From NCBI GenBank assembly GCA_015066105.1, contig SVOY01000001.1:372001-436000 (forward strand): a stretch of 64,000 nucleotides of DNA, read 5' to 3'. The translations under genes and the position numbers were made by a program. Below, one piece after another: positions 11,401-32,743 of this stretch. Within the stretch, counting starts at the first letter, position 1. Each line of letters starts with the position of its first letter. The notes under the pieces are model-generated. The model did no database searches, had not been told where the DNA came from, and saw only the letters and a list, made by a program, of their open reading frames with translations. Origin of the DNA: Oscillospiraceae bacterium. Its GTDB lineage: Bacteria > Bacillota > Clostridia > Oscillospirales > Acutalibacteraceae.

Positions 11401-13101
11401 CCTGATGATGTTGTAGTCAATATTACAAACACTGACGGTAAGGCTCCTGCAATCACAAAGTGGAAGAAGACTGAAGGCAAGGGTAATCTTGACAATACCA
11501 AATGGACAACTACTGTTACTTATGATAAAGATGGTGATTACACCTTTGATATCGAGTATACAGACTTAGCTGACAACAAGTGTAGCGGTGCCGAGTACGG
11601 AAAGAGCAAGGCAGCAAAGAAGTTCACAATTGATAAAACTGATCCTGTGGTTTCTGTAAGCTATGACAACAACACTGCAAAGAACGGAAAGTATTTTGCA
11701 TCAGGACGTACTGCAACTATCGTTATTGATGAGCATAATTTTGATATTAACCGTGTAAGCTTTGCTCGCACATCAAGACTTGATGGTAGAAACATTGCTA
11801 CACCTGACGTTTCATGGAATCATTCCGGTGATGTTCACACCGCAACCATAACTTATACTGCAGACGGTGATTACACCTTTGATGTAGAGGTTGATGATAA
11901 GGCAGGCAACAACAATAAATCAGTAAATTATGGCAGCAGTATTGCAGGCGAAGAATTTACAGTTGATAAGACAATTGCAAAGCCGACAATCAATGGCGTT
12001 GTAAACGGTAAGGCTTATAAGGATGAGGTCATTCCTTCAATTTCCTTCAGTGATATAAACTATGATACTTATGAAGTAAAGCTTCTTCGTACCCGTATGG
12101 GAGAGAAGAATGTGGATGTAACATCTCAGCTTATGAAGGGTGTATCGCAGAACGCAACAGGCGGTTCAGGAACTTATGATACCTTTGACAAGATTGCTGA
12201 CAATGATGGTATCTACACCCTTAATGTAAAGGTAATTGATAAAGCCGGAAATGAAGATAGTGATAGTGTAACATTTACTGTTAACCGTTTTGGTTCTGTT
12301 TATGAGTACAGCGATTATCTCATTGACCGAATTGAAAAACGTTATATTACTTCGATTGATGAGGACTTAATTATTACCGAATACAATGCGGACAGACTTG
12401 TTGGCGGTTCTCTCAATATTGAAGTTACCTGTGACGGTAAGCCCTTAGGAGATGTACAGTATGATGTTTCACCTGTAATGAACGAAACAGTTGCTGTTGG
12501 CTCAAGCGGTTGGTTCCAGTATGAATACACAATCAGTAAAGCTAATTTCGAATCTGACGGTGTTTATAAAATCTTTGTATCATCTGAAGATGCAACAGGT
12601 AATAAACCTGAGAACAGCAACTATGAAGATAAGGCTATCACCTTTATGGTTGACAGCACTGCTCCAGAAATAACAAGTATTACAGGTCTTGAAGAGGCTA
12701 TCGTAAATGCTACCGAACAGGAAGTTAAATATACTATTTTTGATACCATTGGCCTTAAGTCAATCAAGGTTCTCGTTGACGGAAAGCAGGTTGGTGATAC
12801 AATTACTGATTTCAGTGCAGATTTGAATAACTATAGTGGTTCATTTAAGCTTAGTGAAAAATCACCTGCTCAGAATGTTCAGATTATTGTTGAAGATTTG
12901 GCTGGTAATGTAACGGATACTGAATCAGAGACATTTACAAGTGAATATGTATTCAACAGTAAGGTTACTGTCTCAACAAACTTCTTCGTTCGTTGGTATG
13001 CAAATAAGGGTCTTTTCTGGGGCTCGATTGCCGGATTCCTTGCACTTGCAGCTGCAATAATCTTCATTGTAGTCAAGCGTAGAAAAAAGGACGAAGAGTA
13101 A
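5461..13101 (+). CDS. Giant cell-surface protein with InlB-like B-repeats and Ig-like modules
   Basis: From ATG 5461 the product is 2546 aa. This start is preferred because AGGAG (5446-5450) is well spaced from it and leads straight into a signal peptide (residues 1-35, ending near SIFANAAA); an in-frame ATG at 5452 is too close. It overlaps the previous gene by 29 nt. Residues about 110-460 hold four copies of a domain with G-x-V/I-x-x-x and GY-x-V/I-x-S/K-L-x-V/I-N motifs, resembling InlB B-repeat/Flg_new-type domains. Most of the rest is Ig-like bacterial repeats with DxAGN signatures. Three long modules of about 430 residues each carry a W-x-x-L-TFGLF-like marker. The end is a membrane helix followed by KRRKKDEE, with no LPXTG, so it is membrane-anchored. 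It is probably an adhesin or a surface scaffold. Transcription with the kinase operon links its display to that system. Confidence 0.9.
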   Translation: MSKKNVKVADKFLAVFLTVLMLFSMMPVSIFANAAAETDYTITVKDEEANSISGATVDFIISVDGEIASDGSATTDENGAAVIDLAEYADEKADDKAITIDCNVTKDGYVAKETEITVEALNGNTEVTLEEIKVETVNVSVSKTGNGTVKINGEESVATVEKGSDVEIKIEPEDGAYIKSLTVNGKEKTVAEGEGYTESVTANEDISIAVTFSTKYTVSVKGEIEHGKITLDGKDIKSLTIDKDEKVKITVTPDKGYQIASVLLNDAEQLEANAVTFEKEVSAATTVEVSFVKVYEVTVTYTDNGIVKTDSDPDNEGGEISVVSGKASIFEIGKKFQIIAVPNENYRVSKVIINDDIQTVDVEGKAIGENEATYKSQKLDVNKNYSITVTFAHNVYNVTVNESDNGTVILSSTSVEHGGKLDISVTPKKGYNVKSLNINSETVNLIGPSDEGEFTYEIASVEDNIELVFEYELVQTALSTELKFHSEDALNYIEATNTYVFKKGVKATFETTGQGMWFYEDSECNKRIHYNWPVETTTKSWGFESNITIGGIEIWKNGKRLNVSLSAPINIVFDETMPTADIKPKEKAVSNGYYNSDVPVKITVKDPGDYSGIGTVTYKIEAVVNGETVTEKGTLYSYSETSDILGEFETEVIIDAKKFNSADVTLTVNVEDRAGNKSTDPADVEKFKINSIAPTVTVSEVSEVSDEINSAKVWIDGELNDARKDKHFKEAEIIVKINDRSDTFDVVSANNAVTISAKKDIVDKNHKDYGNTVDVVIDNTTALSLWTPEEDDQGNIIYDSNGNCNYVATLTLTDDARYEVSVGTYKNGASLSDAVNAKRTFNVDNKAPSGVISADESSWSELLTSLTFGLFKNDKIEVTATAEDEISDIYEIEYYKDNGKTVLSAVKLEELYSDGSFTTEPYTVGEDEDATDERFVVYARLVDKAGNVAYIGTNGIIYDTTESTVSEIVMPAYPSSEHQIYNDSIEVEVNVSEVPLKVLDEQGDIANIYSGIKEVKYEIVDLNDTDTITPAKTVFKYKYEEEEGKYVASEWIWNEDCYGESEEEGDYDNVVSFDTLPTYKELENIAEWNGKIRIDSGKYNSDRIKLSVTATDNAGNVSEPVEKIFSINVDRPIVNIEIGKNNGEGDLIDTEVEPINPDEYGTEDKGYYDAPRKAVITLIERATAFNAENATNAIKITAVDVNGTPVEGAFNISEWSSKALEGTDKTEFKAVVTFDKDANYTFNFDGYVNNAMNGLDKKSADTYTVTGKTPYNFTVDTTDPIGTVTVLGNTWDKLLSTLTFGLFGTTEEKVTADYSDKTSPIHKVEYYKTSNPLAVEEKTLIEYYEADKKNESEEDDYFLDYPKFIDDANPDVVISADEQAVVYFRIEDNAGNYKYISSDGAIIDETPSTVDFTPEKKEPEITLEAISYNIEDGDVTVGINVEEPLEKDADGEEIKGNYSGIQKIEYWVVKDGNIEEYTQSGVLYEFEYKRDTNDDNLNINGGELTETDNGTVVKDEKGHVPTQDMLKQSWSGSVDIIAEGNNSCDVVLYVKVIDNSGNEFTNAQAIDIDVTAPAIDIEFNNNKVNAVVDGRGYFPDDRTATVIITERAAHFDAEAATAGISITAKNAKGEDVVDAYTISEWTTVKGVTPDEDTHTATIHFAKDANYTFDISYTDKAGNKNNEVKFAEGTQTPNEFTVDTVKPFGTVTAKSKEGRETEWDKLITDLTFGFWSREEIAITSTSDDETSPIASVEYYINEAKEEKDASAAITGAELDAVKEWKTLEKLYIEDNKRFTVYLKITDNAGNYSYISTDGLIVDEEAPIEEVIAPEVTVMPEQPINGFYNGDVKVAIKVVDPLVKGSYSGLKTVSYKVYDKAISETEPTQSGTLYTFKTENPKQDQLLKEWTGQITVDSSKNNSNDVVIEVFAEDNSLNTSRDDVAIKIDVTAPEINVSYNNNKVDSNSFFKADRTATIVVTERNFNPDDVVVNITNTDGKAPAITKWKKTEGKGNLDNTKWTTTVTYDKDGDYTFDIEYTDLADNKCSGAEYGKSKAAKKFTIDKTDPVVSVSYDNNTAKNGKYFASGRTATIVIDEHNFDINRVSFARTSRLDGRNIATPDVSWNHSGDVHTATITYTADGDYTFDVEVDDKAGNNNKSVNYGSSIAGEEFTVDKTIAKPTINGVVNGKAYKDEVIPSISFSDINYDTYEVKLLRTRMGEKNVDVTSQLMKGVSQNATGGSGTYDTFDKIADNDGIYTLNVKVIDKAGNEDSDSVTFTVNRFGSVYEYSDYLIDRIEKRYITSIDEDLIITEYNADRLVGGSLNIEVTCDGKPLGDVQYDVSPVMNETVAVGSSGWFQYEYTISKANFESDGVYKIFVSSEDATGNKPENSNYEDKAITFMVDSTAPEITSITGLEEAIVNATEQEVKYTIFDTIGLKSIKVLVDGKQVGDTITDFSADLNNYSGSFKLSEKSPAQNVQIIVEDLAGNVTDTESETFTSEYVFNSKVTVSTNFFVRWYANKGLFWGSIAGFLALAAAIIFIVVKRRKKDEE

Positions 13102-14445: not shown

Positions 14446-15372
14446 ATGAATTCATTGATCGATAATGGAAATATTGTTGAAATGTCATGTGGCACAAATT
14501 TTGCTTATATTTTATGTGACAACAATCTTTTTCATTCAACTGAATATAAGGTTTTACAGAGTCAGACTACAACATGTTTTGTTAAATGTATGAGGCAACT
14601 TTATAACGGAAACATTCAGTTGTTTTATCTGATCGGCAATCTGAAGCCTTTTTCAACAATGATACCTAATCTTGATCCGGATAATTTTTTGACCATAGTT
14701 TCAAATATGTTGGCTGATATTATTGATGTAAAGCACAACGGATTTTTATCTTGTCAGAACATCGATATTTCTTTTGACAAGATTTTCGTTGATCCTGCAA
14801 CATTGAAGGTCAGTCTTGTATATTTGCCGGTAAACAAAAGAGTTTATAGTGATGCTTTAATGTTTGAAAATGAATTGAGAACAAGTCTTGTTAAGCTTAT
14901 ATCGGGTGTATCTACTTTATCTTCACCTAAGACAACTCAGTTCAGTGTTGATCTTTCTAACGGAACGCTTTCTATTGAAGATCTTTATAATCGTATAAAG
15001 GGCAATGGTAGTTTTGGCGGTGTAAGAACTGAACCAGAAGCAGATCCTGTGCCAACACCGTCAAAGACAGCATCAATGAGACTTGTTGCGATGAATGCTC
15101 CGACAAGAGTTGAAATTGAAATAACGAAAGATGAGTTCGTTATCGGTAAAAAAGCTGAGCTTGTAGACGGAGTGGTATCGTTTAATAAAATGATCAGCAG
15201 ATCTCATTGCAAAATTATAAGAAAAAACAATCAATACAGTGTTATCGACTTGCAGAGTGCAAACGGAACTTATGTAAATAAAATAAGGCTTCAACCGAAC
15301 AAGCCTTGTGCAATTAATAATGGTGACATTATTCGTTTGGCAAATAGCGATTTCCAGGTTGTTATAGGATAA
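14446..15372 (+). CDS. FHA-domain protein (second paralogue), type VII locus
   Basis: A 308-aa protein with GGAGG before ATG 14446. The N-terminal ~190 residues resemble the N-terminal domain of the FHA protein at 852 (a similar block around FDKIFVDPATLKVSLVYLPV against its LQLIYLPL region). A Pro/Thr linker follows at about 190-210. The FHA domain occupies about 220-308, with FVIGKKAE, the full SRSHC motif and SANGTYVNK, so all main phosphopeptide contacts are kept. It lacks the ETGLL tract of its paralogue, so it is a reader rather than an obvious substrate. First gene of the operon that leads into the ATPase, YukD and EssC genes, 12 nt before the next start. Probably a cytoplasmic adaptor that couples phosphorylation to secretion. 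Confidence 0.87.
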   Translation: MNSLIDNGNIVEMSCGTNFAYILCDNNLFHSTEYKVLQSQTTTCFVKCMRQLYNGNIQLFYLIGNLKPFSTMIPNLDPDNFLTIVSNMLADIIDVKHNGFLSCQNIDISFDKIFVDPATLKVSLVYLPVNKRVYSDALMFENELRTSLVKLISGVSTLSSPKTTQFSVDLSNGTLSIEDLYNRIKGNGSFGGVRTEPEADPVPTPSKTASMRLVAMNAPTRVEIEITKDEFVIGKKAELVDGVVSFNKMISRSHCKIIRKNNQYSVIDLQSANGTYVNKIRLQPNKPCAINNGDIIRLANSDFQVVIG

Positions 15373-16730: not shown

Positions 16731-19700
16731 ATGATGGATAAACGATATAAGATTATACTTTCAAGTAATAATTTATATAAAGAAATCGAACTTGCTCAGG
16801 ATGCACAGAGAGTAAAAGTCGGAACAACAATTGATTGTGATGTCAGATTAAGAAAAGATTTGTTTTTTGGTACTGTTGAACTGTTTTTTGTTAAAAACGG
16901 TGTAAACTGGTCTGTTCACTGTTCGGATAATTTGTACTTAACTGTTGGTGATATCAGAAAGTTGATGACCAAGAATTTGGTTCATGGTGATTCGTTGGAA
17001 ATTAAGTATCAGGAATCGGATAATTTATTGTTTGAACTTGATTTTTTGATTGATTTTGACGATGGAAAGAGAAAGTATGAGAGAATTATTGATGTATTAA
17101 GCGCATCAACGATTACCATTGGTACATCATCTACCAGTAACATTTGTTTGAATAGCCCATATGTAAAAAATGATGCTGTTACCCTTACAAAAAAAGGAAA
17201 TGCATATGTAGTTGATATCAAACAGACAACATACGGTGTTTACATAAACGGTAAAAAAGCTAAATCTAAAGATGTTCTTAATAACGGAGACTTTCTGTCC
17301 GTTTCTGATTTCTTCTTCTATTATAAAGATAATAAAATTTGGACACAGAAAAACTCAGGAATACAAGTTAATTCATTAAACTTTGAGGATAAGACGACGA
17401 TGAATTCTTATCCCAAATTTAATCGAAATACGAGAATAAAAACGGTTGTATGTAAGGATGATATTGAAATTCTCGATCCTCCAGCGGCACCTCAGAAGCC
17501 TAAGAATAACCTTCTGACAAGGCTTCTCCCTTCTATGGGTATGCTTATTGCGTCAGGCGTCATGGCATTTTTTGGTGGAGCTATGATCATTATGTCAGTT
17601 ATTTCTGCGGGAATGGCAATCTTTACTTCAGTACTCACTCTAAAGCAAGGTAACAAGGAATATAATCAGATCAGTGAAGAGAGGATTAAAAAATATAACG
17701 CTTATATTTCCAACAAGCGTAAAGATGTAGAAGCCTGCAGAGCTGATGAGAAAGCAGTGCTCGATAGCCTTTATATTTCTCAAGACGAAGAGATAAGATG
17801 TTTCGAAGCTTTTTCACCAGGCCTTTTTGATAGAACTCCTGAGGACAAGGATTTCTTGTCTGTCAAGCTTGGTGAGGGTGCAGTAGAGGCACAAAGACAC
17901 ATTAAGTATAAGAAACAGGAAAAACTTGAAATAGACGATGAATTGCAGGTGCTCCCAGGACAGTTATGTGACGAGTATAGATATATCAATAGTGCTCCTG
18001 TTGTATGTAGCTTTAAGGATGTAAATGCAGTGGGCATTGTTGGTGCATTGGAAGACAGATACAACATATTCAAGAACACAATCATTGATATTGCGGCTCG
18101 TCAGTATTTCAAGGACGTCAAGATGGTGTTTGTTGCGCAGGAGGACAATGCAGATAAGATTTATTGGCTTCGTATGTTGCCTCAGGTGTCTGTCGATGAG
18201 CAAAAAATCAAAACCGTTGTTACAGATAATGAGAGTAAAAATATAGTCTTTGAGTATCTATATAAGGAATTGACTCTTCGCCAGCAAACAAAAAAATACG
18301 ACAATCACATTGTCATTTTCCTTTTTGATGAATATGGATTCAAAAGCCATCCGATTTCAAAGTTTGTAGAGAAAGCCAAGGATTTAGGTGTTACATTTGT
18401 TTTCTTTGGCGCAACAACTGCAGATATTACTCTTGGTTGCGAAAGATTGATTTCCTTAAAGGGGGCAAACTCCGGCTGTATTATGCTGACAGAGGATAAT
18501 AGTAAGGCTACAGAGTTCACCTATACTCCTCTTTCTACTGAAGATGCGAAGAAGATAGTGGATTTAATGGCTCCTATTTATAGTGAGGAAATCTCACTGG
18601 AAGGCACTTTGACAAAGAGTATTTCGATGTTCGAAATGTTAAATATTTTGGCAGTAGACGATATTAACTTGGAAGAAAGATGGAAGACTTCTGAAGTTTA
18701 CAAGTCTATGGCTGCCCCGTTAGGCGTATCAAAAAGCGGTATGGTATATTTAGATCTGCATGACAAGGCACATGGTCCTCACGGTCTTGTGGCAGGTACT
18801 ACCGGTTCTGGTAAGTCTGAAATCTTGCAGACATATATTCTTTCTATGGCTACCTTGTTCCATCCTTATGAAGTGGGATTTGTAATTATCGACTTCAAAG
18901 GTGGCGGTATGGTTAATCAATTTAAGAACCTTCCACATTTGATGGGCGCCATAACAAATATCGATGGTAAGGAAATTGATCGTTCCTTGAAGTCGATTAA
19001 GGCAGAACTCCAAAAGAGACAAAGACTATTTGCAGAGGCAGAAGTTAATCATATTGACAAATATATACGTAAATTTAAAGGTGGAGAAGTAGCAATTCCG
19101 TTACCCCACTTGATAGTGATTGTTGATGAATTTGCTGAATTAAAAGCTGAACAGCCGGAATTTATGAAGGAACTTATATCGGCGGCTCGTATTGGTCGTA
19201 GTTTAGGTGTTCATCTTATTCTTGCAACGCAAAAGCCTTCTGGCCAGGTGAATGAGCAAATATGGAGTAACTCCAAATTCAAACTGTGTCTTAAGGTTCA
19301 AAGCCAAGAAGATAGTAACGAGGTTATTAAATCACCATTAGCAGCTGAAATTAAAGAGCCAGGCCGCGCGTATTTGCAGGTAGGAAACAATGAAATATTC
19401 GAACTATTCCAGTCTGCATACAGTGGTGCTCCCGAAAAGATGGATGATACCTCTATTAAGGAATTTTCAATTAGAAGTGTTTCCTCTTGCGGTAAGAGAA
19501 CTCCTGTTTATGTTCAGAAACGCAAAAAAGCAGATGGAATAAACACCACGCAGTTGGATGCTATTGTCGAATATGTAAATCTCTACAGTCAAAAGGAAGG
19601 CATTGAGAGATTACCTAACATATGTTTACCTCCGTTGGAGAGGTCCATTTCGGTACCAAAAGAATTGACTGTAAAAGGCAACAGTTATCCTATTGGTATT

Positions 19701-21230
19701 TACGATGATCCAGATACTCAATATCAGGGTGAAGCGTATTTTGATTTTGATTCTGATAATACAATCATTGTGGGAGCATCCCAAACTGGTAAGACCAATC
19801 TTCTTCAGCTTATTGTTAGAGAAATAGCATCACAAAAGAAGGCTAACGAAGCAAGTTTTTACATTATTGATTTTGGTTCAATGATTCTTAAGAATTTTGA
19901 GGAATTGAATCACGTTGGTGGTGTTGTTCTCTCTTCTGAAGAAGAAAAGTTAAAAAATTTATTTAAGCTCCTCTTACAAGAATTAGATGTCAGAAAAGAG
20001 AAATTGATGTCTGTAGGTGTCAGCTCTATATCTTCGTATAATGAAGCTGGTTACAACGATATTCCGCATCTGTACGTAATTCTTGAGAACTTTGCTGTAT
20101 TTAGAGAACTGTATGCGGATAAATATGAGGACGATTTCCTGTTCATTGCACGTGAAGGCATTACTTATGGTATTTCCTTAATTGTTACTGCGACCACTAC
20201 AAGTGGTTTCGGGTACAAATATATGTCAAATTTTGCAAACCATATTGCACTTACATGTAATGATAATTCGGAGTATTCTAATCTCTTTGATCGTTGCAGA
20301 ACTGAACCGAGCAATATACCTGGACGTGTTCTTGTTTGTTTCAATAAAGTTATTTACGAAGCTCAAACATATTTGAGCTTTGACGGAGAAAAAGAGATTG
20401 ATAGAATAAGTGCAATCAAAGCGTTTATTGCCGAACAAAATAACCGTAATGCCGGTTTACGAGCTAAACGCATTCCCGAGGTTCCGGATATCCTTGATCA
20501 ATCTTATATTTATGATAACTTTACGGTTAATGTTCAGAATCAGATTGCGGTTTCTCTTAACTACCAGCAGGTTGAGCCTGTATACTTTGACATTACATCA
20601 ATGCCTCAGCTTACGCTTGTTGGTAAATTGACGACAAATATGATAGGTTTTGAGAAGGCTCTTATTAACGAGATTAAGATGAGCTACTTTGACCGTCCTG
20701 CAGACGTATATATAATCGATTCTCTTTCCAGAGACCTGGCAAAATATGCAGAAGAACCTTTTGTGGAAGAATACTCGATTGATTACTCTATGTTGAGCAC
20801 GATCTTTGAGGATGTAACAAGCAAACTCGAAGAGAGATACGCAGAGGTATTGGAAGAAGGCCTTGAGGTCCTTGATAATAAGCCTTTACTGTTTGTGCTT
20901 ATAAATAACACAAGTGCCATCGAATACATTTCCACTTCAAAAGAACTTATGGCTATGTACACTTCGATTGTAACAAAGTATAAGGCTATGAAGGTGATGT
21001 TGGTATTTGGTGGTATTAATGATGAGGCAATAGGATACTCAAGCGGAGATCTTCTTAAGAAGTTAAAAGAAAACAAGAATGCTATGATCTTTACGAATCT
21101 TGCTGAACATAAGGTGTTCGATGTTCCGGCAGCATTTATTAGAGCAAATAAGAAACCTATTGATGCATCTCAGGGATATTATCTGCGCGAAACAGAAATT
21201 GTAAAGATTCGTTTTGCAAAGGAGGAATAA
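16731..21230 (+). CDS. essC: EssC/YukB-type FtsK/SpoIIIE secretion ATPase with N-terminal FHA domains
   Basis: A 1499-aa protein, the usual size for EssC/YukB. Residues 1-205 hold two FHA-like domains (the second with TITIGTSSTSNICL and GVYINGKK). Two membrane helices lie at about 267-303. Three ATPase modules follow: the first has Walker A GTTGSGKS (689-696), FKGGG, and Walker B ending VIVDEFAEL (DE 799-800); the second has GASQTGKT (1015-1022); the third (from about 1320, LTLVGKLTTN) is degenerate. This is the motor and substrate-recognition core of type VII secretion, which exports WXG100/LXG proteins. AAGGAG lies before the ATGATG start; the second ATG is also possible. The FHA domains make it a direct candidate reader for the phosphothreonine motifs encoded upstream. 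Confidence 0.95.
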   Translation: MMDKRYKIILSSNNLYKEIELAQDAQRVKVGTTIDCDVRLRKDLFFGTVELFFVKNGVNWSVHCSDNLYLTVGDIRKLMTKNLVHGDSLEIKYQESDNLLFELDFLIDFDDGKRKYERIIDVLSASTITIGTSSTSNICLNSPYVKNDAVTLTKKGNAYVVDIKQTTYGVYINGKKAKSKDVLNNGDFLSVSDFFFYYKDNKIWTQKNSGIQVNSLNFEDKTTMNSYPKFNRNTRIKTVVCKDDIEILDPPAAPQKPKNNLLTRLLPSMGMLIASGVMAFFGGAMIIMSVISAGMAIFTSVLTLKQGNKEYNQISEERIKKYNAYISNKRKDVEACRADEKAVLDSLYISQDEEIRCFEAFSPGLFDRTPEDKDFLSVKLGEGAVEAQRHIKYKKQEKLEIDDELQVLPGQLCDEYRYINSAPVVCSFKDVNAVGIVGALEDRYNIFKNTIIDIAARQYFKDVKMVFVAQEDNADKIYWLRMLPQVSVDEQKIKTVVTDNESKNIVFEYLYKELTLRQQTKKYDNHIVIFLFDEYGFKSHPISKFVEKAKDLGVTFVFFGATTADITLGCERLISLKGANSGCIMLTEDNSKATEFTYTPLSTEDAKKIVDLMAPIYSEEISLEGTLTKSISMFEMLNILAVDDINLEERWKTSEVYKSMAAPLGVSKSGMVYLDLHDKAHGPHGLVAGTTGSGKSEILQTYILSMATLFHPYEVGFVIIDFKGGGMVNQFKNLPHLMGAITNIDGKEIDRSLKSIKAELQKRQRLFAEAEVNHIDKYIRKFKGGEVAIPLPHLIVIVDEFAELKAEQPEFMKELISAARIGRSLGVHLILATQKPSGQVNEQIWSNSKFKLCLKVQSQEDSNEVIKSPLAAEIKEPGRAYLQVGNNEIFELFQSAYSGAPEKMDDTSIKEFSIRSVSSCGKRTPVYVQKRKKADGINTTQLDAIVEYVNLYSQKEGIERLPNICLPPLERSISVPKELTVKGNSYPIGIYDDPDTQYQGEAYFDFDSDNTIIVGASQTGKTNLLQLIVREIASQKKANEASFYIIDFGSMILKNFEELNHVGGVVLSSEEEKLKNLFKLLLQELDVRKEKLMSVGVSSISSYNEAGYNDIPHLYVILENFAVFRELYADKYEDDFLFIAREGITYGISLIVTATTTSGFGYKYMSNFANHIALTCNDNSEYSNLFDRCRTEPSNIPGRVLVCFNKVIYEAQTYLSFDGEKEIDRISAIKAFIAEQNNRNAGLRAKRIPEVPDILDQSYIYDNFTVNVQNQIAVSLNYQQVEPVYFDITSMPQLTLVGKLTTNMIGFEKALINEIKMSYFDRPADVYIIDSLSRDLAKYAEEPFVEEYSIDYSMLSTIFEDVTSKLEERYAEVLEEGLEVLDNKPLLFVLINNTSAIEYISTSKELMAMYTSIVTKYKAMKVMLVFGGINDEAIGYSSGDLLKKLKENKNAMIFTNLAEHKVFDVPAAFIRANKKPIDASQGYYLRETEIVKIRFAKEE

Positions 21231-21234
21231 GGCG

Positions 21235-21567
21235 ATGGCAGGTCAATTTGATTTCAAGCTTGATACGAGTGCATTCACAGAATCGGCAGAGGCAGCAAAA
21301 AAACTTGCCGAAACTTTGGAAGGCGCTATCGCAAAAGCTGACAAGGCTATAAACAATCTGTATGATGTTTGGGCTGGCAAAGGCCGAAACGAGTTCGAAA
21401 AAAAATATAAAATTTTCGAGCAACAGGTTGCAGACATTAAAAATGGTCTTTGGGATTTATATGAGGATATCGTTGCTGCCGAAGAAGGATATATACAAGC
21501 CGATACTGATGCAGCTAAGGCGATGGATGGTGTATCCGAGGGCGGTATATCCCTTAGTGATTATTAA
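21235..21567 (+). CDS. WXG100-family secreted protein (first)
   Basis: A 110-aa protein starting at ATG 21235, 8 nt after AGGAGG and 4 nt after the EssC stop; upstream extension is not needed. Helix-turn-helix hairpin layout with VWAGKGRNEFEKK in the turn, so the W-x-G motif is intact at about residue 43-45. The C-terminal half contains the hydrophobic/charged pattern ending EGGISLSDY. WXG100 proteins are exported as helical dimers by EssC-type ATPases and carry a C-terminal Y-xxx-D/E signal; here a short GYIQADTD segment could serve. Probably the EsxA-like structural substrate of this system. Confidence 0.9.
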   Translation: MAGQFDFKLDTSAFTESAEAAKKLAETLEGAIAKADKAINNLYDVWAGKGRNEFEKKYKIFEQQVADIKNGLWDLYEDIVAAEEGYIQADTDAAKAMDGVSEGGISLSDY

Positions 21568-21992: not shown

Positions 21993-23363
21993 ATGGGCAA
22001 AATAACAATTGACTATTCAGAAATAAATAGTGCGGCAAAGAAAGCCCGTTCTGCTTCTGGATATTTTGAAGATTTCGAAGAGGAACTCGAGAAGAAAGTT
22101 TCAAAAAAACTTAGTGGACTACCTGGTTCTGACAGTAAGGGCAATATTGGAAATGCAAAGAGTGTCGTTTCTTCAAAGATTAAAGAACTTAGGGAAAAAA
22201 AGAAATACTATTCCGATTTAGCCTCAAGTCTCGAAAAACTTGCGGATAACATTGAGTATGAAGAGAAAAGTGTTGTTACTGACGTAAGATACATTGCAAC
22301 TGAGGCACTTGAGCTAAACAGACAGTCTAAATGGCAAGCATTCTGTCAGTGGGCATATGGAACATTTTGTGTTGATATGCTGAACTGGAATCCTATTACT
22401 CGCTTTATCGGTAATGGTATAAAGAAAGGCCTTGATTGGGTTCAAGAAAAAGGAACTAAAATTGTTGACTGGTTTAAACATGGTGAAGGCAAATATTATT
22501 TAGGAATTGCACTTGACGCCTTAGCAGTTGTTGGCGCAATTGCTGGTACAGTTGCTGCAATTGCTTTAGCTGTTGCCACGGGTGGTGCTGCAGCTCCTTT
22601 GGTGGTTGCAGCGGTTGCCTCGACTATTGGTACAGTAATGACAATGGTTGATTCTGGTTTCTCAATTTATAATAAGGTTAAAGCCTTAAAGGTTGAAAAG
22701 GAAACCGGTGATCCTGGACGTGCACGTTATTACGGTAACATCAGCGGTGTCAGCGATACAATTGATAAGACAGATATGGGTGGAAAAACCGCCAACGATG
22801 TGTGGGGCGTTGTAGGAACGGGATATGATGTGGTTCATGTTGCAGCAGACATTACGGCCGTTGTTTCTGGTACAATCGGTGCTGCTGGATTATCCGGACA
22901 GGCAGTAAAAAATCCCGTAACCGGAAAGTTTGAACTTAAAACTACATATGATCCTACAAAGATTAAGGGTAACCTGAAGAGCACTTTCCTTGAAAAAATT
23001 GGTTTCCGAAATAACGGTGGAAAATGGACATTTAACATCAAGAATTTGTTCAGTACAAAACGGCCTACAGGAACAATGCCAAGAACCGATATATTTAAGA
23101 AAGATATTATTGGTGACAAAATTGGAGATACGACATATAAGACAATCAATAAGATTAAAAAGTATGCGGGTCTTCCCGGTAAATACTATAAAAAGGCGAC
23201 ACAGATTGAGAAGATATTATTGCCGGATAGTTCTGATTATGATAGGTTTAAAAATGTAATGAAATATATTGGTGGAACGGATTTTAATATATCCTCTCCT
23301 GTTAGTGATTTTAATGATACTGTATTAGAAATAATTGATACTGTTATTGATATAGCATCGTAA
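21993..23363 (+). CDS. Probable type VII secreted substrate (LXG-like N-terminus, hydrophobic middle)
   Basis: A 456-aa protein. Residues 1-110 form long helices similar in arrangement to LXG/WXG-class substrates. Residues 170-225 are strongly hydrophobic and Gly/Ala-rich (AVVGAIAGTVAAIALAVATG and following), as seen in the central part of many type VII effectors. The remaining 230 residues are basic and Gly-rich with no toxin motif that I recognise (no HNH, no ADP-ribosyltransferase triad, no peptidase motif). No adjacent gene looks like a dedicated immunity gene, though the 2-TM product at 23375 could be one. The start 3 nt after the previous stop has a weak ribosome site, implying coupling. 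Most likely an exported effector or structural substrate. Confidence 0.72.
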   Translation: MGKITIDYSEINSAAKKARSASGYFEDFEEELEKKVSKKLSGLPGSDSKGNIGNAKSVVSSKIKELREKKKYYSDLASSLEKLADNIEYEEKSVVTDVRYIATEALELNRQSKWQAFCQWAYGTFCVDMLNWNPITRFIGNGIKKGLDWVQEKGTKIVDWFKHGEGKYYLGIALDALAVVGAIAGTVAAIALAVATGGAAAPLVVAAVASTIGTVMTMVDSGFSIYNKVKALKVEKETGDPGRARYYGNISGVSDTIDKTDMGGKTANDVWGVVGTGYDVVHVAADITAVVSGTIGAAGLSGQAVKNPVTGKFELKTTYDPTKIKGNLKSTFLEKIGFRNNGGKWTFNIKNLFSTKRPTGTMPRTDIFKKDIIGDKIGDTTYKTINKIKKYAGLPGKYYKKATQIEKILLPDSSDYDRFKNVMKYIGGTDFNISSPVSDFNDTVLEIIDTVIDIAS

Positions 23364-25260: not shown

Positions 25261-25551
25261 ATGGCAGATATTACCTACGATATCGATAAGTTGAAAAAAG
25301 CAAAAGAAGCAATAGATGATCTTATTGATAATCTAAATGATGACAACAAAAAACTCACGGAGGCCTTAGCTGATTTGAAAACTGGCTGGAAAACAGATAC
25401 AGGTACGAAATTCTTTGATGAACATAAGGATACCTGGACTGAATACGTGAAGAAGTATGTCAAGAAGCTCAAAGGAGTTAGCGATATGCTCCAAAAAGCT
25501 ATTGACAGATATGAAAATATCGGTAGTGAAGTGAAAAATCTTAAGGTTTAA
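25261..25551 (+). CDS. WXG100-like protein (second, W-K-T variant)
   Basis: A 96-aa helical hairpin protein with the turn sequence LKTGWKTDTGTKF. The Trp is kept but the usual W-x-G glycine is replaced (W-K-T), with another Gly at +4. AAGGAGG precedes ATG 25261. It forms an apparent pair with the W-Q-G protein 40 nt downstream, as EsxA/EsxB-like heterodimer partners do. It is highly charged and Lys-rich. Confidence 0.82.
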   Translation: MADITYDIDKLKKAKEAIDDLIDNLNDDNKKLTEALADLKTGWKTDTGTKFFDEHKDTWTEYVKKYVKKLKGVSDMLQKAIDRYENIGSEVKNLKV

Positions 25552-25590
25552 CACTTTATTATATACTTTAATTTAAAGGAGGTGAAAACA

Positions 25591-25875
25591 ATGGCAATCT
25601 ATGTTGAAAGAGAAGGTATTGAATCTTGTATCAAGAAGATTCAGGATGCTATTGAGCAGCTCCAGTCTGCAGCATCCGACATTGACAAGACAATGGGAGA
25701 ACTTCCGACATATTGGCAGGGTGCTGCTTATGACAAAGCATCTACTACTTATATTGACGAGTATCAGACATTGTTGACTAAAACTGTGCCTGACAGTGTT
25801 GATAGCTTTAAGCAGTTCATCAACGGTTGTAAGGATACGATCATTGATATTGATAACCAGCTTTCTGGACAGTAA
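25591..25875 (+). CDS. WXG100-family protein (third, canonical)
   Basis: A 94-aa protein from ATG 25591, with AAAGGAGGTG just upstream. Two helices flank a turn with PTYWQGAAYDKA, an intact W-x-G. The C-terminal helix ends near IIDIDNQLSG. Classical EsxA-like size. Last gene before a good intrinsic terminator, so it closes the secretion operon. Likely an exported dimer partner of the 25261 product. Confidence 0.9.
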   Translation: MAIYVEREGIESCIKKIQDAIEQLQSAASDIDKTMGELPTYWQGAAYDKASTTYIDEYQTLLTKTVPDSVDSFKQFINGCKDTIIDIDNQLSGQ

Positions 25876-25892
25876 CAATGAACTCAAATTTG

Positions 25893-25930
25893 CCTACCTG
25901 TCCTTAAATGGATAGGTAGGTTGTTCTTTT
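25893..25930 (+). terminator. Rho-independent terminator ending the type VII operon
   Basis: CCTACCTGTCC (25893-25903) pairs with GGATAGGTAGG (25910-25920), 11 bp with one G-U, loop TTAAAT, followed by TTGTTCTTTT. Confidence 0.85.
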
Positions 25931-26458: not shown

Positions 26459-26856
26459 GGAGATGTACCTATTAAGATAATAAGAAATGATATAACTTAA
26501 ATTGAATGCGATGTCATTGTTAATGCCCATTCCTTTTTGAGAGGCGGCGTTGATGGCGCTATACATAGAGCTACTGGCAAGGGGCTCCTTTTGGAATGCA
26601 TGAAAATTGGTGGATGTAAGGTTGGCCAGGCAAAGCTCACAAAAGCTTATAAACTCTCTTCTAAACATATTATACATACAGATTGTCCGAAGGGGAAAGG
26701 CGGCAAAAATGTCGAGAAAGAGCTTTTGGGGAGCTGTTATAGGAAGTCGCTGACGCTTGCTTTAAACAACAAGGTGAATCTGGTGCGTTTTCTTTAAATT
26801 CAAGAGGAGTATACGGATACCATAAGATCAAGCATTGTAAGACGAGAATTGTTTGA
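26459..26856 (+). pseudogene. Broken macro-domain (ADP-ribose-binding) gene
   Basis: Frame at 26465 reads VPIKIIRNDIT, then an in-frame TAA (26498-26500), then IECDVIVNAHS and a GGVDGAIHRATG-type ADP-ribose-binding segment, then CKVGQAKLTKAYKLSSKHII. After about 26760 the similarity continues one base out of frame as GESGAFSLNSRGVYGYHK, ending at TGA 26854-26856. These are the hallmark blocks of macro-domain proteins (IVNAAN, GGVDGAIH, G-E-A-x-x-T, SxGxYGYP), which bind or remove ADP-ribose. There is no start codon, and one stop and one frameshift are present, so it is not functional as read. Its end abuts the ribosome site of the PARG-fusion gene. Confidence 0.85.
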
Positions 26857-26873
26857 AGGATCAGGAGGGAAAC

Positions 26874-29800
26874 ATGAAAAAAGAAAAGCTTATAAAATGC
26901 TTTGAAGATACCATTAAGATTTCTAAATCAAATAAGTTGGCTGAAAAAACAGAAAAAGCAATATTGTCAAACAAGATTTACTGTGAAAACAGCACTTGTA
27001 ATACTCCCAAAGTTAAAAGTGGAGTACACAATGACAATATAATTGTTGAGCAGAACACTACATTTAACGCAGCAAAAAAATACAGCCATTTAGGCAGAAT
27101 GGCTGTGTTGAACTTTGCCAATCCTGTAAATCCGGGGGGCGGAGTGCAAAACGGTGCAATGGCTCAGGAAGAATGCTTGTGCAGAAGCAGTAATTTATAT
27201 CTATGCCTTTGTGCAGATAATGTGCGTGACGATTATTATTCATATCATTCTAAAAAAGGGAATCAGTTCTGGTCAGACAGATTAATATACACACGTGATG
27301 TAACTGTATTTAAAGATGACAAAGACATCCCCAAACTTTTACCTGAAAAAGAATGGTTTGATGTTGATGTAATCACATGTGCTGCTCCTTATCTTGCAAA
27401 GAGGAAGTATACAAACTTAACTGCATTATCGCAATTATTTGAAAGTAGAATTAAAAATATTTTTGAAGCCGCAATAGATAATAATGTTGATGTTTTGATT
27501 TTAGGTGCATTTGGTTGTGGCGCTTTTAAGAATCCACCTAAAATCGTTTCGGAGGCATTTCGTAAGGTTATATATACAAATTGTTATTATGAAAAATTTA
27601 AGAAAATTATATTCGCAATTAAGCCAACAAGTGAAAATTGTTCTAATTATAGAGCTTTTGATGATTCATTAATAGATCATTCTGATGAGTGTCAGTTGTT
27701 GTTTTCTTACCTTGAAAAAAGATACGATAAAATTCCTGAATATATAAATAATATTATGATTAAGAATAGTCATTATGAAAATTGGGTAGAATATCATAAT
27801 AAATATTTTGGTAAACAGTTTTCTATTCTTGGAGACTCTATAAGTACGCTTGATGGTTATAATCCACTAGGATATAATGTTTTTTACAAGGATGATAATT
27901 GTGAAAAATCCGGAATTAAACAAATGAGTGACACATGGTGGGGTAAAGTGATCGACTTTTTTGGCGGTGAACTTCTTGTTAATAATTCCTGGTCGGGCAG
28001 TCGGGTAACAAAGCTACACAACAAAGAATCTCTTTTTCCATCAGGATGCTCTGATGAACGCACATCAGCATTACACATCAATAATGTTAAGCCTGATGTA
28101 ATAATTGTGTATCTCGGTACAAATGACTGGGCCTATGGTGCCAGAACGGGAAATGATACAAAGCTTCTTGGCGAGGATGATAATGAGCATTTTGATGAAG
28201 CTTATGGATGTATGATAAAAAAACTTAAGCGTAATTATCCGGAAAGTGAAATCTGGTGTTGCACACTAAATAAAACATTTATGTCCCAAAAACCATCTTT
28301 TGTATTTCCAGAAAAACACAGTGGTATCCATATTGAGGAATATAACGAAATTATCAGACGTGTTGCAAGTTATACGAATTGTAAACTTATCGATTTATAT
28401 AGTTACAACCTCCCTTATGATGCAGTTGACGGTTCGCATCCGAATGCTGATGGTATGAATACATTAGCAACTTTAATGATAAGGGAAATTGGCGGAGAAG
28501 AGATTAATAAATTTCTTGATTGTTCTGCATCTCTTGATTATTATGATGATATATTAGATCTTACAGTGAAAAATACAGGAGAAAAGATTTACTGTAGTAA
28601 AAATATGGTGCGTGTTGGGCGAGAAAGAGAGTATGTTGATATTTATTTTGGTAATCAAGAAATATCAAGATGCCAGGGACTTTTTATATATAAAAATAAC
28701 AGATGGTTTTTGTGTGACACTAATTCGATTAATGGTACTTGGTTAAATGGTAAAAGAATTGAATCACGAAAAGAGTACGAGTTGTGCGCAAATGATGTTA
28801 TTAATTTTGCCAATGTTTTAGAAGTAATATTCAATAAAATTACAAATTTGAATTTAGATGATTTAAAACATGGATTTGTAATTGCAGATGAATATACGGG
28901 TGGTATAAAGTTTGTATGTAAGAAGTGCGGTAAAATTAAACATGAAAGCACAGTATATTCTAATTACACAGAATGTGATAATGATGTTACTGTTGAACTG
29001 GATGCTGATAAAACAACCATTGCTTATGATAATTCTAATTTACAACAGCTTGGTTTTGTTGGTAAGGTTTTATACGAAAAGTATTCAGTTTTAAAACAGA
29101 TTCCTTCCGGAGGCTTTTTTAAGATTTATTTAGTTGAGGACATTAAAACAAATAAAAAGATGTTAATGAAAGTATGTGATAAAAGTCAAAAAGATTATAC
29201 TGATAATATTCGTGAAATTATACTTCAGGAACCAAAAATGATGATGAAATTTAATCATCCTGCGATGCCGAAGGTTTTTGATGTGATTGAGGATAGTAGG
29301 TATATATTAATTATCAGAAATTATTTTGAAGGGGAATCTTTGGATATTGTTATTCGGAATAAAGGGCCTCAGTCAGCAGAAAAAGTTGTCGAATGGGGCA
29401 AGCAGCTTTGCGATGCACTTTCGTATTTGCACAATCTTACTCCGCCTCACATTTATAGGGATATGAAACCGCATAATGTGGCTTTAACTCCTGAAGGTAA
29501 TTTAAAATTGATTGATTTCGGAATAATGAGGCTGTATAATCCTCAGAAATCATGTGATACTACAAACTTAGGCACCAAAGGTTATGCAGCACCTGAACAA
29601 TATGGTGGTTTAGGTCAAACGGATGCGAGAACAGATATCTTCGGCTTGGGTATGACGTTGTGTGAGTTGGTTACCGGCGAAGATCCTAAAAAGCGAGAAT
29701 ATGTACATAGACCAATACGTCAAAATAATCCGGATTTGCCTAAGGGTTTGGAATACATAATTTCTAAATGTACTGAAATTGATCCTAAAAACAGATATCA

Positions 29801-29891
29801 GTCATGTTCTGAATTGTTGGATGATCTTAATAATTATATGAGTTTGCCAAAATCTAAAGGAATTTTCGGGAAGTTTTTTGGAAAACAATGA
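26874..29891 (+). CDS. PARG - SGNH hydrolase - FHA - Ser/Thr kinase fusion protein
   Basis: A 1005-aa protein from ATG 26874 (AGGAGG 7 nt upstream). Residues 25-255 are a bacterial poly(ADP-ribose) glycohydrolase domain with the catalytic GGG-x7-QEE signature (GGGVQNGAMAQEE, about 88-100) and GAFGCGAF near 211. Residues 310-540 are an SGNH/GDSL hydrolase: GDS (block I), SWSG (II), GTND (III) and DGSHPNADG (V), so Ser, Gly, Asn and His are all present. Residues 570-655 are FHA, with RVGRE, SRCQ where SRxH is usual, and SINGTWLNG. A CxxC pair follows near 682. Residues 740-985 are a kinase with Lys766, YRDMKPHN (catalytic Asp863), IDFG and APEQY; it is a close paralogue of the 2771 kinase. No membrane helix. 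It could hydrolyse ADP-ribose, deacylate or de-esterify a substrate, bind phosphothreonine and phosphorylate. The combined role is unknown. Confidence 0.93.
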   Translation: MKKEKLIKCFEDTIKISKSNKLAEKTEKAILSNKIYCENSTCNTPKVKSGVHNDNIIVEQNTTFNAAKKYSHLGRMAVLNFANPVNPGGGVQNGAMAQEECLCRSSNLYLCLCADNVRDDYYSYHSKKGNQFWSDRLIYTRDVTVFKDDKDIPKLLPEKEWFDVDVITCAAPYLAKRKYTNLTALSQLFESRIKNIFEAAIDNNVDVLILGAFGCGAFKNPPKIVSEAFRKVIYTNCYYEKFKKIIFAIKPTSENCSNYRAFDDSLIDHSDECQLLFSYLEKRYDKIPEYINNIMIKNSHYENWVEYHNKYFGKQFSILGDSISTLDGYNPLGYNVFYKDDNCEKSGIKQMSDTWWGKVIDFFGGELLVNNSWSGSRVTKLHNKESLFPSGCSDERTSALHINNVKPDVIIVYLGTNDWAYGARTGNDTKLLGEDDNEHFDEAYGCMIKKLKRNYPESEIWCCTLNKTFMSQKPSFVFPEKHSGIHIEEYNEIIRRVASYTNCKLIDLYSYNLPYDAVDGSHPNADGMNTLATLMIREIGGEEINKFLDCSASLDYYDDILDLTVKNTGEKIYCSKNMVRVGREREYVDIYFGNQEISRCQGLFIYKNNRWFLCDTNSINGTWLNGKRIESRKEYELCANDVINFANVLEVIFNKITNLNLDDLKHGFVIADEYTGGIKFVCKKCGKIKHESTVYSNYTECDNDVTVELDADKTTIAYDNSNLQQLGFVGKVLYEKYSVLKQIPSGGFFKIYLVEDIKTNKKMLMKVCDKSQKDYTDNIREIILQEPKMMMKFNHPAMPKVFDVIEDSRYILIIRNYFEGESLDIVIRNKGPQSAEKVVEWGKQLCDALSYLHNLTPPHIYRDMKPHNVALTPEGNLKLIDFGIMRLYNPQKSCDTTNLGTKGYAAPEQYGGLGQTDARTDIFGLGMTLCELVTGEDPKKREYVHRPIRQNNPDLPKGLEYIISKCTEIDPKNRYQSCSELLDDLNNYMSLPKSKGIFGKFFGKQ

Positions 29892-31990: not shown

Positions 31991-32743
31991 ATGCCAAGAC
32001 AAGCGAGAAAAAAGAGCTCAAGCGGAATATATCACGTAATGCTCAGGGGAATAAACAAACAGCAGATTTTTGAGGATGAAGAAGACTGCGATAAATTCCT
32101 TTGGGTTTTGAAAGAAACAAAGGCAGTAAGTGAATTTAAGTTGTTCGCTTACTGCCTTATGGGTAATCATATACATTTGCTTATAAAAGAAGAAAAAGAG
32201 CCTATAGAACAGATTTTCAAGCGCATAGGCGGAAAATTTGTTTATTGGTACAATATTAAATACCAACGAGTAGGACATCTTTTTCAGGACAGATTTAAGA
32301 GTGAGCCGGTAGAGGATGAATCCTATTTATTTGCGGTATTGAGGTACATACATCAGAACCCCGTTAAAGCAAAGCTTTGTAAAAATGTTGAGGATTACGA
32401 GTTCAGCAGTTACAGAGAATATACGGACAGAAAGTGGATTGTTGACACTGATTTTGTTCTCGACATATTGCCGCTTGATGAATTTACAACGTTCAATCAC
32501 GAAGAGAGCATGGATAAGTGTTTGGAAATTGAAGAAAAAGAGGCTGTGCGCTTGACAGACGAACAGGCAAAAGCTATAATTGAATTGTGTTCAGGTTGCA
32601 GAAATGTAACCGAATTTCAGGCTTTGCCAAAGGCAGATCAGGAGAAATTCATAGAAGAATTCAGAAACAAAGGTTTGTCGATAAGACAAATTGTCAGGTT
32701 AACAGGAACAAGTAAGGGGTTGGTTGAGAAATGGCTGAAATGA
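31991..32743 (+). CDS. REP-associated tyrosine transposase (Y1/HUH family)
   Basis: A 250-aa protein with the IS200/IS605-like Y1 transposase fold: an N-terminal GIYHVMLRGINKQQIF strand, the HUH motif as HIH in MGNHIHLLIK (about 54-63), GHLFQDRFKSEPV, and the catalytic Tyr in YIHQNPVKA (about 118). An extra C-terminal helical region (residues 180-250) ends in a helix-turn-helix-like GLSIRQIVRLTGTSKGLVEK segment, as in RAYT proteins. Such enzymes nick single-stranded DNA at small hairpins (REP elements) and are thought to spread them. Matching hairpins flank this gene in inverted orientation and three more lie within 0.9 kb. GAGGTGG precedes ATG 31991. Confidence 0.93.
   Translation: MPRQARKKSSSGIYHVMLRGINKQQIFEDEEDCDKFLWVLKETKAVSEFKLFAYCLMGNHIHLLIKEEKEPIEQIFKRIGGKFVYWYNIKYQRVGHLFQDRFKSEPVEDESYLFAVLRYIHQNPVKAKLCKNVEDYEFSSYREYTDRKWIVDTDFVLDILPLDEFTTFNHEESMDKCLEIEEKEAVRLTDEQAKAIIELCSGCRNVTEFQALPKADQEKFIEEFRNKGLSIRQIVRLTGTSKGLVEKWLK

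Follow-up and report, generated by a model that had tools for sequence, protein, structure and literature searches.

A PARG-SGNH fusion protein encoded after a type VII secretion locus in an Oscillospiraceae bacterium

Organization of the locus

The window analyzed here is a stretch of 64,000 nucleotides from the genome of an Oscillospiraceae bacterium, and all the features reported below are on its + strand. At positions 26874–29891, it carries a single frame of 1005 codons, which starts with ATG (AGGAGG at 26863) and encodes a protein of 1005 amino acids without any internal stop. This protein consists of PARG, SGNH hydrolase and FHA domains, a zinc-ribbon-like stretch and a protein kinase domain, and will be called the fusion.

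The fusion gene follows a type VII secretion (T7SS) locus extending from 852 to 25875. The first genes encode a TseJ-like protein with a DUF6382-like and an FHA domain (852–1973), a PP2C phosphatase identified by domain match and resembling TseF (1997–2758), a TseD-like Ser/Thr kinase with a hydrophobic segment (2771–4459), and a TseI-like protein of 2556 amino acids, which contains Ig-like repeats and, at the C-terminus, a hydrophobic segment (5431–13101). They are followed by a second DUF6382-like and FHA protein (14446–15372; the DUF6382 matches are below the Pfam cut-off in both cases), the EssC/FtsK-type ATPase, which is the motor of the T7SS and has an N-terminal FHA domain (16731–21230), and three small proteins: a WXG100 protein (21214–21567), a WXG100/YwqH-like protein identified with Pfam (25261–25551), and a WXG100-like protein just under the Pfam cut-off (25582–25875). 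Between these genes and the fusion lie a terminator-like hairpin of 12 pairs (25892–25921), which is a consensus match only, three such hairpins being found in the region vs. 2.2 expected, and a decayed macro-domain gene (26462–26797). The latter, just upstream of the fusion, shows one in-frame stop, lacks three residues and is 62–64% identical to two intact homologs.

This organization resembles that of the T7SSe subtype described by Garrett et al. (2024). An FHA-bearing EssC, a membrane kinase and a PPM phosphatase, as well as a DUF6382-FHA protein, a large protein with Ig repeats and extra WXG100 proteins, are features which the window locus appears to have in common with the T7SSe as described (PMC11217815). 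The likeness concerns these six kinds of components, matched by domain, of a published set which also includes TseB, TseH, and TseK (PMC11217815). The main text of the same paper contains no occurrence of "glycohydrolase" or "GDSL" and appears to name no PARG, SGNH or macro component.

Domains of the fusion protein

The preliminary description of this DNA had assigned PARG, SGNH, FHA and Ser/Thr kinase domains to a single protein. All four were recovered in the one frame with Pfam scores exceeding the cut-offs: PARG_cat_microb (residues 16–148, E 4.9e-33, 115 bits vs. 23.5), Lipase_GDSL_2 (residues 319–528, E 2.2e-13, 51.5 bits vs. 32.9), FHA (residues 579–645, E 1.1e-13, 51.8 bits vs. 20.7), and Pkinase (residues 737–980, E 4.6e-39, 134.8 bits vs. 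31.7). No membrane segment was found by hydropathy (maximum 19-residue mean 1.23). The fusion is assembled from known domains, and searches of the open-licence PubMed Central literature yielded no paper describing this domain order, in keeping with what had previously been claimed.

The PARG domain (26928–27662, residues 19–263) was matched by the NCBIfam model TIGR02452 with 194.7 bits (cut-off 50) over profile positions 22–265 of 266, which is nearly its full length. The residues GGG (88–90) and QEE (98–100) form the motif GGG-x7-QEE (27135–27173), exactly as it had been written in the preliminary description, the catalytic signature of bacterial-type PARG being GGG-x(6-8)-QEE. In sequence comparisons, the PDB PARG chains 5zdb and 3sig match the domain with E-values of about 1e-26 to 1e-24. 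The HMM match, far above the cut-off, and the motif are common to the fusion and the bacterial-type enzymes (TIGR02452/PF10021; e.g. Deinococcus, Thermomonospora), and the domain is predicted to hydrolyze ADP-ribose linkages. Unlike plain bacterial-type PARG, it is joined to an SGNH domain, and seven of the ten relatives carry a kinase as well.

The SGNH (GDSL) hydrolase domain (27828–28457, residues 319–528) carries blocks I, II, III, and V: GDS (320–322), NNSWSG, GTND (415–418), and DGSHP (519–523). The Ser, Gly, Asn, and Asp-x-x-His blocks are shared with the SGNH/GDSL hydrolases of PF13472 and PF16255. The closest solved structures in terms of sequence are those of the uncharacterized GDSL proteins 4m8k and 4nrd. 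In a tree of 29 SGNH sequences, the window domain groups with 24 relatives (38–74% identity), and four more distant sequences fall outside this group; matches covering less than 120 query residues or with E above 1e-8 were excluded from the trees.

In the FHA domain (28608–28808, residues 579–645), the R, S, and N phosphothreonine contacts are retained and the His is replaced by Gln, SRxH reading SRCQ at 598–601. Between this domain and the kinase, a zinc-ribbon-like CxxC...C stretch (28917–28976, residues 682–701), absent from the preliminary description, was observed. A CxxC stretch also occurs in the six other kinase-bearing rows of alignment A1 (G224, G267, G272, G353, G397, and G212); Pfam zinc ribbons are matched by the proteins of G353 and G397, and none is matched by the window protein.

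The kinase domain (29082–29813, residues 737–980) retains Lys766, YRD (861–863), and DFG (881–883), and its Gly-rich loop reads PSGGFF instead of GxGxxG, which had also been overlooked. The earlier statement that all four domains keep their key residues therefore holds for the PARG and SGNH catalytic residues and is too strong in the case of the kinase. Among the eight fusion kinases, three (the window, G224, and G727) have a strongly degenerate Gly loop, and the first Gly of the loop is missing in G267; the kinase of G224 has also lost the Lys and the Gly of DFG, and that of G272 has YGD where YRD is expected. The window domain is 50% identical to the T7SS kinase at 2771–4459. The idea that each fusion kinase arose from the T7SS kinase of its own genome is unsupported, as the two sets of kinases do not pair by genome. 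Judging from descriptions, the fusion can be likened to EssB, the pseudokinase of the T7SSb, in that a kinase-fold domain occurs beside an FHA-bearing EssC. EssB is described as interacting with EssC, presumably without phosphorylation (PMC11217815), whereas the fusion keeps the Lys, YRD, and DFG and lacks a membrane segment according to its hydropathy.

Distribution of the fusion

PARG and SGNH domains in one frame were identified in 10 genomes belonging to three families: in 8 of 398 genomes of the same family (E 1e-40), in 6 of 394 genomes of the order, two of which were new, and in 1 of 398 genomes of the phylum, namely the window's own. Eight of these relatives are 45–65% identical to the window protein, with conserved catalytic residues. 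GGG/QEE as well as the SGNH Ser, Asn, and Asp-x-x-His are kept in 10/10 fusions. A kinase is present in seven of the ten carriers, the other three having none of any kind, and an FHA domain in three. The search for the four-domain order across genomes, proposed in the preliminary description, recovered the same order in a carrier genome consisting of two contigs and rated 100% complete. As the FHA domain is present in only 3/10 and the kinase in 7/10 of the relatives, the four-domain order is not fixed, and on the basis of these sequences the conserved unit is PARG-SGNH.

An assembly join between two genes had been considered in the preliminary description. The window comes from a draft genome of 27 contigs, and the fusion was absent from all 23 other genomes of the same genus searched, several of which are only 72–90% complete. 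An assembly join was nevertheless rejected because the PARG-SGNH frame recurs in the 10 genomes, and with catalytic residues conserved in all ten and carriers in three families, including the two-contig genome, a functionless product of assembly or of accidental gene fusion is hardly credible. A single origin of the PARG-SGNH fusion could not be established: the starred branches of the PARG tree force at least two label changes, although one change is possible in the SGNH tree.

In the plasmid collection, none of the 642 records had one place covering 80% of the full fusion protein, nor did any of the 20 records in the phage collection in the case of the PARG-SGNH part; the matches listed (30 and 10, respectively) correspond to single domains or to the kinase plus its flank. 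The 11 loci found in the scan of the contig collection matched solely through T7SS-type kinases and FHA domains.

Linkage to the type VII secretion system

Relatives of the fusion are encoded near a T7SS in several genera, and this linkage occurs in about half of the carriers. EssC was identified in four of the eight carriers tested, always on the same contig and strand as the fusion gene, at distances of 5.6, 6.5, 8.7, and 16.2 kb, so that the nearby type VII system noted in the preliminary description has counterparts beyond the window. In the other four carriers (G224, G272, G237, and G406), no EssC match was found at E 1e-30. With random placement, the chance of all four lying within 20 kb of EssC is about 1.6e-7, which is only a rough figure because G353 and G397 belong to the same genus. 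A fifth carrier, G698, has the terminal part of an EssC-like frame (32% identity over 136 amino acids) 8.0 kb upstream, at a contig edge.

Nine of the 398 family genomes have an EssC at least 46% identical, and five of these nine carry a fusion of the PARG-SGNH or SGNH-kinase type, vs. 4 of the 389 others (Fisher 1.9e-7, uncorrected for relatedness). Four of these five have the PARG, the fifth being the SGNH-FHA-kinase of G212. Since four of the nine have no such fusion, PARG-SGNH itself being present in 4/9, the fusion is not a core component of the T7SSe. PARGs not fused to SGNH have T7SS-type neighbors at only 3 of the 26 loci viewed: the PARG gene of G718 is part of a T7SS-like cluster, and those of G735 and G275 have T7SS-type kinase and FHA genes nearby. 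In G727, the neighbor of the fusion is a Tad pilus cluster.

The position of the gene after WXG100 genes, in the window as well as in G267 and G698, raises the question as to whether the fusion is itself a T7SS substrate exported to a target cell. This is very improbable: with Pfam, no T7 targeting domain of the LXG/WXG or any other type was detected, PARG is an eraser rather than a maker of damage, and the kinase would have to find ATP, which kinases require. Candidate T7SS substrates are, however, often encoded after WXG100 genes (PMC11217815).

Alternatively, the PARG-SGNH part might sense and erase endogenous ADP-ribosylation (or ADP-ribose) and signal via the FHA and kinase or kinase-like domains to the secretion machine, which would be the T7SS or, in G727, the Tad pilus. 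The resemblance between the fusion kinase and the T7SS kinase, the R, S, and N contacts retained in its FHA domain, the kinase, PP2C, and FHA genes surrounding both the T7SS and Tad clusters, and the phospho-regulation suggested for some T7SS subtypes (PMC11217815) are consistent with this idea. It nonetheless seems doubtful, given that the kinase and FHA domains are the least conserved parts (7/10 and 3/10), that the Gly loop of the window kinase is degenerate, that the R and S contacts seem, by eye, to be missing from the FHA domain of the window EssC, and that no writer was found among the window proteins scanned or, in the case of DUF3990, genome-wide.

Possible functions of the fusion

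We tentatively favor, with a probability of roughly 0.45, the reading that the fusion is a soluble ADP-ribosyl eraser associated with the T7SS, which is docked or regulated via its FHA and kinase domains and probably has a protective role. It would be an accessory of the T7SSe-like locus, reversing ADP-ribosylation: the PARG would cleave O-glycosidically linked ADP-ribose off RNA, protein or ADP-ribose chains, and the SGNH domain would cleave carboxylic esters on adducts beyond the reach of PARG, such as acyl groups which, after migration, occupy the 2'' or 3'' hydroxyl on the distal ribose. Asp/Glu-ADP-ribose and O-acyl-ADP-ribose are candidate adducts, acyl migration being known to occur in Asp/Glu-ADP-ribose and O-acetyl-ADP-ribose (PMC11664928, PMC11668277). 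The zinc ribbon, FHA, and kinase-like domains might either dock the protein to the kinase/PP2C/FHA circuit of the locus or subject it to the control of this circuit, and the likely benefit would be to shield the cell from ADP-ribosylating effectors of its own or rival systems. We infer all these enzyme activities, the SGNH substrate and the docking from domain content and gene neighborhood.

The erasers of ADP-ribosylation described so far belong to three families, the macrodomain (including PARG), ARH, and NADAR families (PMC11668277, PMC11833690). Genes of the window SGNH group lie near ARH genes in 3 of the 13 genomes examined: they are 20 bp apart on contig C14 of the window's own genome and 2.5 kb apart in G233, and in G755 the SGNH gene overlaps an FHA-ARH gene. 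In the 10 other genomes, no ARH was found near the SGNH gene. In view of these three cases, the SGNH part may also be involved in ADP-ribose removal. What sets the window group apart from the SGNH/GDSL hydrolases described previously is its linkage with PARG and, in certain genomes, with ARH. The open-licence PubMed Central searches yielded no description of a role of SGNH in ADP-ribose metabolism; a Legionella effector paper containing both "SGNH" and "ADP-ribosylation" appears to deal with SGNH effectors without any macrodomain or ADP-ribosylglycohydrolase terms.

Bacterial PARGs, which have been called functionally enigmatic, protect E. coli from an RNA-targeting ADP-ribosyltransferase (ART) toxin and act as immunity enzymes (PMC11833690), and for this reason protection by the fusion against ADP-ribosylating effectors is plausible by analogy. 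As in the case of Imm-ARG (PMC3482391) and the PARG immunity enzymes (PMC11833690), an eraser would serve as a protection in interbacterial conflict. In contrast to these systems, the window fusion is tied to kinase and FHA domains, and the adjacent cognate toxin typical of an ART-toxin immunity enzyme was not found: Pfam scans of a subset of the window frames revealed no ADP-ribosyltransferase gene. Since none was found beside the fusion, the protective role is one that we infer. DUF3990, the single ART-clan family searched genome-wide, is absent from the window's genome. It was rejected as a general writer, being present in 4 of 11 genomes (the 10 carriers and G212) and near the fusion in only one.

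The macro, VWA-like, PARG, and SGNH genes might instead act together as a module with a general role in ADP-ribose/NAD stress or in defense against phages, kept alongside in genomic islands by chance, with the kinase added in some cases. The order observed in G237 (a QueC/asparagine-synthase-like gene with sub-threshold matches, macro, VWA-like, PARG-SGNH), the VWA-like genes (below the Pfam cut-offs) preceding the fusion in G406 and G272, the macro remnant on the same side in the window, and a PARG match 1.5 kb from a VWA-like gene on a 446-kb viral contig speak for such a module. The fusion kinase also matches PADLOC kinase models. The PADLOC matches listed are, however, confined to the kinase, and those of the ordinary T7SS kinase are of similar or higher quality, so that they carry no weight and the fusion cannot be filed as a defense system on these grounds. 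As the linkage to essC is also left unexplained, this module appears unlikely.

The recurring PARG-SGNH unit and the SGNH genes beside ARH point to an unexplored ester-directed enzyme in ADP-ribose chemistry, and the placement at T7SS loci provides bacterial PARGs with a testable home in interbacterial conflict. The fusion suggests the existence of a hitherto undescribed protective or control part of the type VII secretion machine, and possibly a point of contact between ADP-ribosylation and phosphorylation within a single bacterial protein. Some of the other PARGs surveyed have ARH, ARH-Macro or ARH-NADAR as their fusion partners.

Domain composition of the fusion protein

The window spans positions 372001–436000 of contig C10 in a draft assembly of 2.48 Mb (27 contigs). 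The PARG-SGNH-FHA-kinase fusion is encoded there by a single frame of 1005 codons (positions 26874–29891), ahead of which lies a Shine-Dalgarno-like AGGAGG (26863). The preliminary description of a four-domain protein with named motifs was borne out: the motif positions agree, and Pfam recovered PARG, SGNH/GDSL, FHA, and kinase domains in this order, all four above their cut-offs. TIGR02452 matched the fusion with 194.7 bits (cut-off 50), and the sequences of solved bacterial PARG structures matched it with E values of ~1e-26 to 1e-24. The further claim that the key residues are kept in all four domains holds for the motifs but not for the Gly-rich loop of the kinase, which reads PSGGFF; in TseD-type kinases (Ser/Thr kinases with a hydrophobic segment found at type VII secretion system [T7SS] loci), this loop is GxGGMS in seven of the eight compared and GQGSMG in the eighth (that of genome G727).

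Since the loop is strongly degenerate in three of the eight fusion kinases (those of seven PARG-SGNH carriers and of G212), the Lys being lost only in G224, the kinase half may serve as a docking domain or a weak kinase. The fusion is devoid of any membrane segment on hydropathy, in contrast to the T7SS kinase. A CxxC...C stretch N-terminal to the kinase (residues 682–701) had been overlooked previously; a CxxC stretch also occurs in the six other kinase-bearing rows of the alignment of relatives, and Pfam zinc ribbons were matched in the G353 and G397 proteins. The component parts of the architecture are known domains; no description of the PARG-SGNH-FHA-kinase architecture and no paper linking SGNH to ADP-ribose biology were found in open-licence PubMed Central.

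Distribution and phylogeny

PARG and SGNH were identified in one frame in eight of 398 genomes of the same family (G000, the source genome, G224, G267, G272, G353, G397, G237, and G406) with a relative as the query (E 1e-40). An order-wide search of 394 genomes, with eight aligned PARG-SGNH proteins as the query, yielded six carriers, including two new ones, G698 and G727, from two other families. PARG-SGNH was detected only in G000 among 398 genomes searched across the phylum, and the fusion was not found in 23 other genomes of the same genus, several of them incomplete. The Pfam scan, which covered all 10 distinct carriers, showed a kinase in seven (not in G237, G406, or G698) and FHA between SGNH and kinase in three (G000, G272, and G727), the FHA of G272 being flanked by extra sequence and an SseB domain. 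The four-domain order recurs in G727 (1009 aa; assembly of two contigs, rated 100% complete). PARG is missing from the G212 protein, an SGNH-FHA-kinase fusion whose SGNH no longer has its catalytic His and Asn.

The PARG-SGNH fusions are more clustered in the trees than shuffled labels, and the trees do not establish one single origin. Since G698 groups across families with G237 and G406, on a starred branch in both the PARG and SGNH trees, its placement suggests lateral transfer.

Linkage to type VII secretion

The secretion genes in the window encode an EssC-type ATPase with FHA, two proteins that combine a DUF6382-like part with FHA, a membrane kinase, a PP2C, and WXG100 proteins, along with an Ig-repeat protein of 2556 aa; in these gene kinds the locus resembles T7SSe, as far as part of the published description of that subtype goes (PMC11217815). 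At E 1e-30, EssC was tested in 16 genomes including eight carriers: it was present in G000, G267, G353, and G397 and gave no match in G224, where the fusion gene starts ~0.2 kb from a contig end, or in G272, G237, and G406. In all four positive carriers, the fusion lies downstream of EssC on the same contig and strand, at 5.6, 6.5, 16.2, and 8.7 kb, respectively. EssC was found at E 1e-100 in 36 of the 398 family genomes, nine of them at ≥46% identity; five of these nine carry an SGNH-kinase fusion (four with PARG), vs. PARG-SGNH in four of the 389 others (Fisher, 1.9e-7, genomes treated as unrelated).

The contig stretch of G698 opens 8.0 kb upstream of PARG-SGNH with the last part of an EssC-like frame, and small T7SS-like genes and a WXG100 gene lie in between. 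Immediately before the fusion, G267 and G698 have two genes in common, one for an Mbeg1-like hydrolase and one WXG100-like. The SGNH-FHA-kinase gene of G212 lies directly 5' of a T7SS locus. Of 26 loci with a PARG not fused to SGNH whose neighborhood was retrieved, only three have T7SS-type genes beside it, which speaks against a general PARG-T7SS rule. The fusion of G727 has, at a distance of 5 kb, a kinase/PP2C/DUF6382-FHA cluster that includes Tad pilus genes (T2SSE, TadZ-like, and T2SSF), as if one phospho-circuit served both Tad pili and T7SS; the kinase, PP2C, and DUF6382-FHA genes adjoin the Tad cluster at L157:528–17748.

A 456-aa protein encoded 3' of essC in the window (21993–23363), with a charged, probably helical N-terminus, a hydrophobic middle, and no Pfam match, is a candidate T7SS substrate. 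Larger proteins without Pfam matches also occur 3' of essC at L044:13146–14861 and L155:1237–3105.

Possible role in ADP-ribose removal

ADP-ribosylglycohydrolase (ARH) genes were surveyed in 13 genomes carrying this SGNH group outside PARG fusions. Any ARH match was obtained in six, and ARH lies near SGNH in three. In G000 (contig C14), it follows SGNH after 20 bp, on the same strand; in G755, an interrupted SGNH frame overlaps an FHA-ARH gene; and in G233, ARH is 2.5 kb away on the opposite strand. None was found near SGNH in the other 10; the random expectation of three of 13 within 3 kb is roughly 5e-6, assuming one ARH per genome. In G275, also included in the ARH search, PARG and SGNH are separate genes 2.5 kb apart. 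Some other PARGs within the order occur as fusions with ARH, ARH-Macro, or ARH-NADAR. Taken together, the ARH proximity, the G275 pair, and the PARG-ARH fusions link the SGNH group by association to ADP-ribose removal, in which it may act on a related substrate. As a proposed chemical rationale, Asp/Glu-linked ADP-ribose and O-acetyl-ADP-ribose are described as migrating among the ribose hydroxyls (PMC11664928, PMC11668277), which would yield plain carboxylic esters fit for an SGNH esterase. Our main reading, given a probability of about 0.45, is that the fusion is a secretion-locus-associated ADP-ribosyl eraser, most likely protective; PARG immunity against an antibacterial RNA-targeting ADP-ribosyltransferase (ART) toxin has been published (PMC11833690).

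Single PARG-ARH proteins were observed at L049:912–4046, L053:8593–11127, L046:599–2647, L047:3076–5103, and L159:6701–8863; with a third eraser added in L049 (macro) and L053 (NADAR), the five jointly cover all three known eraser families. The FHA-ARH fusion overlapped by an SGNH gene (L176:1627–3183) is a further phospho-reader tied to an ADP-ribose eraser.

Other neighboring genes

A decayed macro-domain gene (26462–26797) lies 5' of the fusion, with a third-position GC of 0.44 vs. 0.15–0.29 by segment in the fusion, and an IS200-like (Y1_Tnp) transposase gene (31991–32743) lies 3' of it. PARG-SGNH of G237 directly follows a VWA-like gene, itself preceded by an intact macro gene; a VWA-like gene also precedes the fusion in G406 and G272, the VWA matches in all three being below the Pfam cut-offs. 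DUF3990, which Pfam assigns to the ART clan (PMC7955679), is present in four of 11 genomes and near the fusion only in G272, where two such genes occur within 4 kb, together with an HTH gene (L042:1581–3663). On a viral contig of 446 kb (L170:5001–7802), a PARG match is separated by 1.5 kb from a VWA-like gene whose VWA match is below the Pfam cut-off, and PARG matches were found in phage G and Lak phages.
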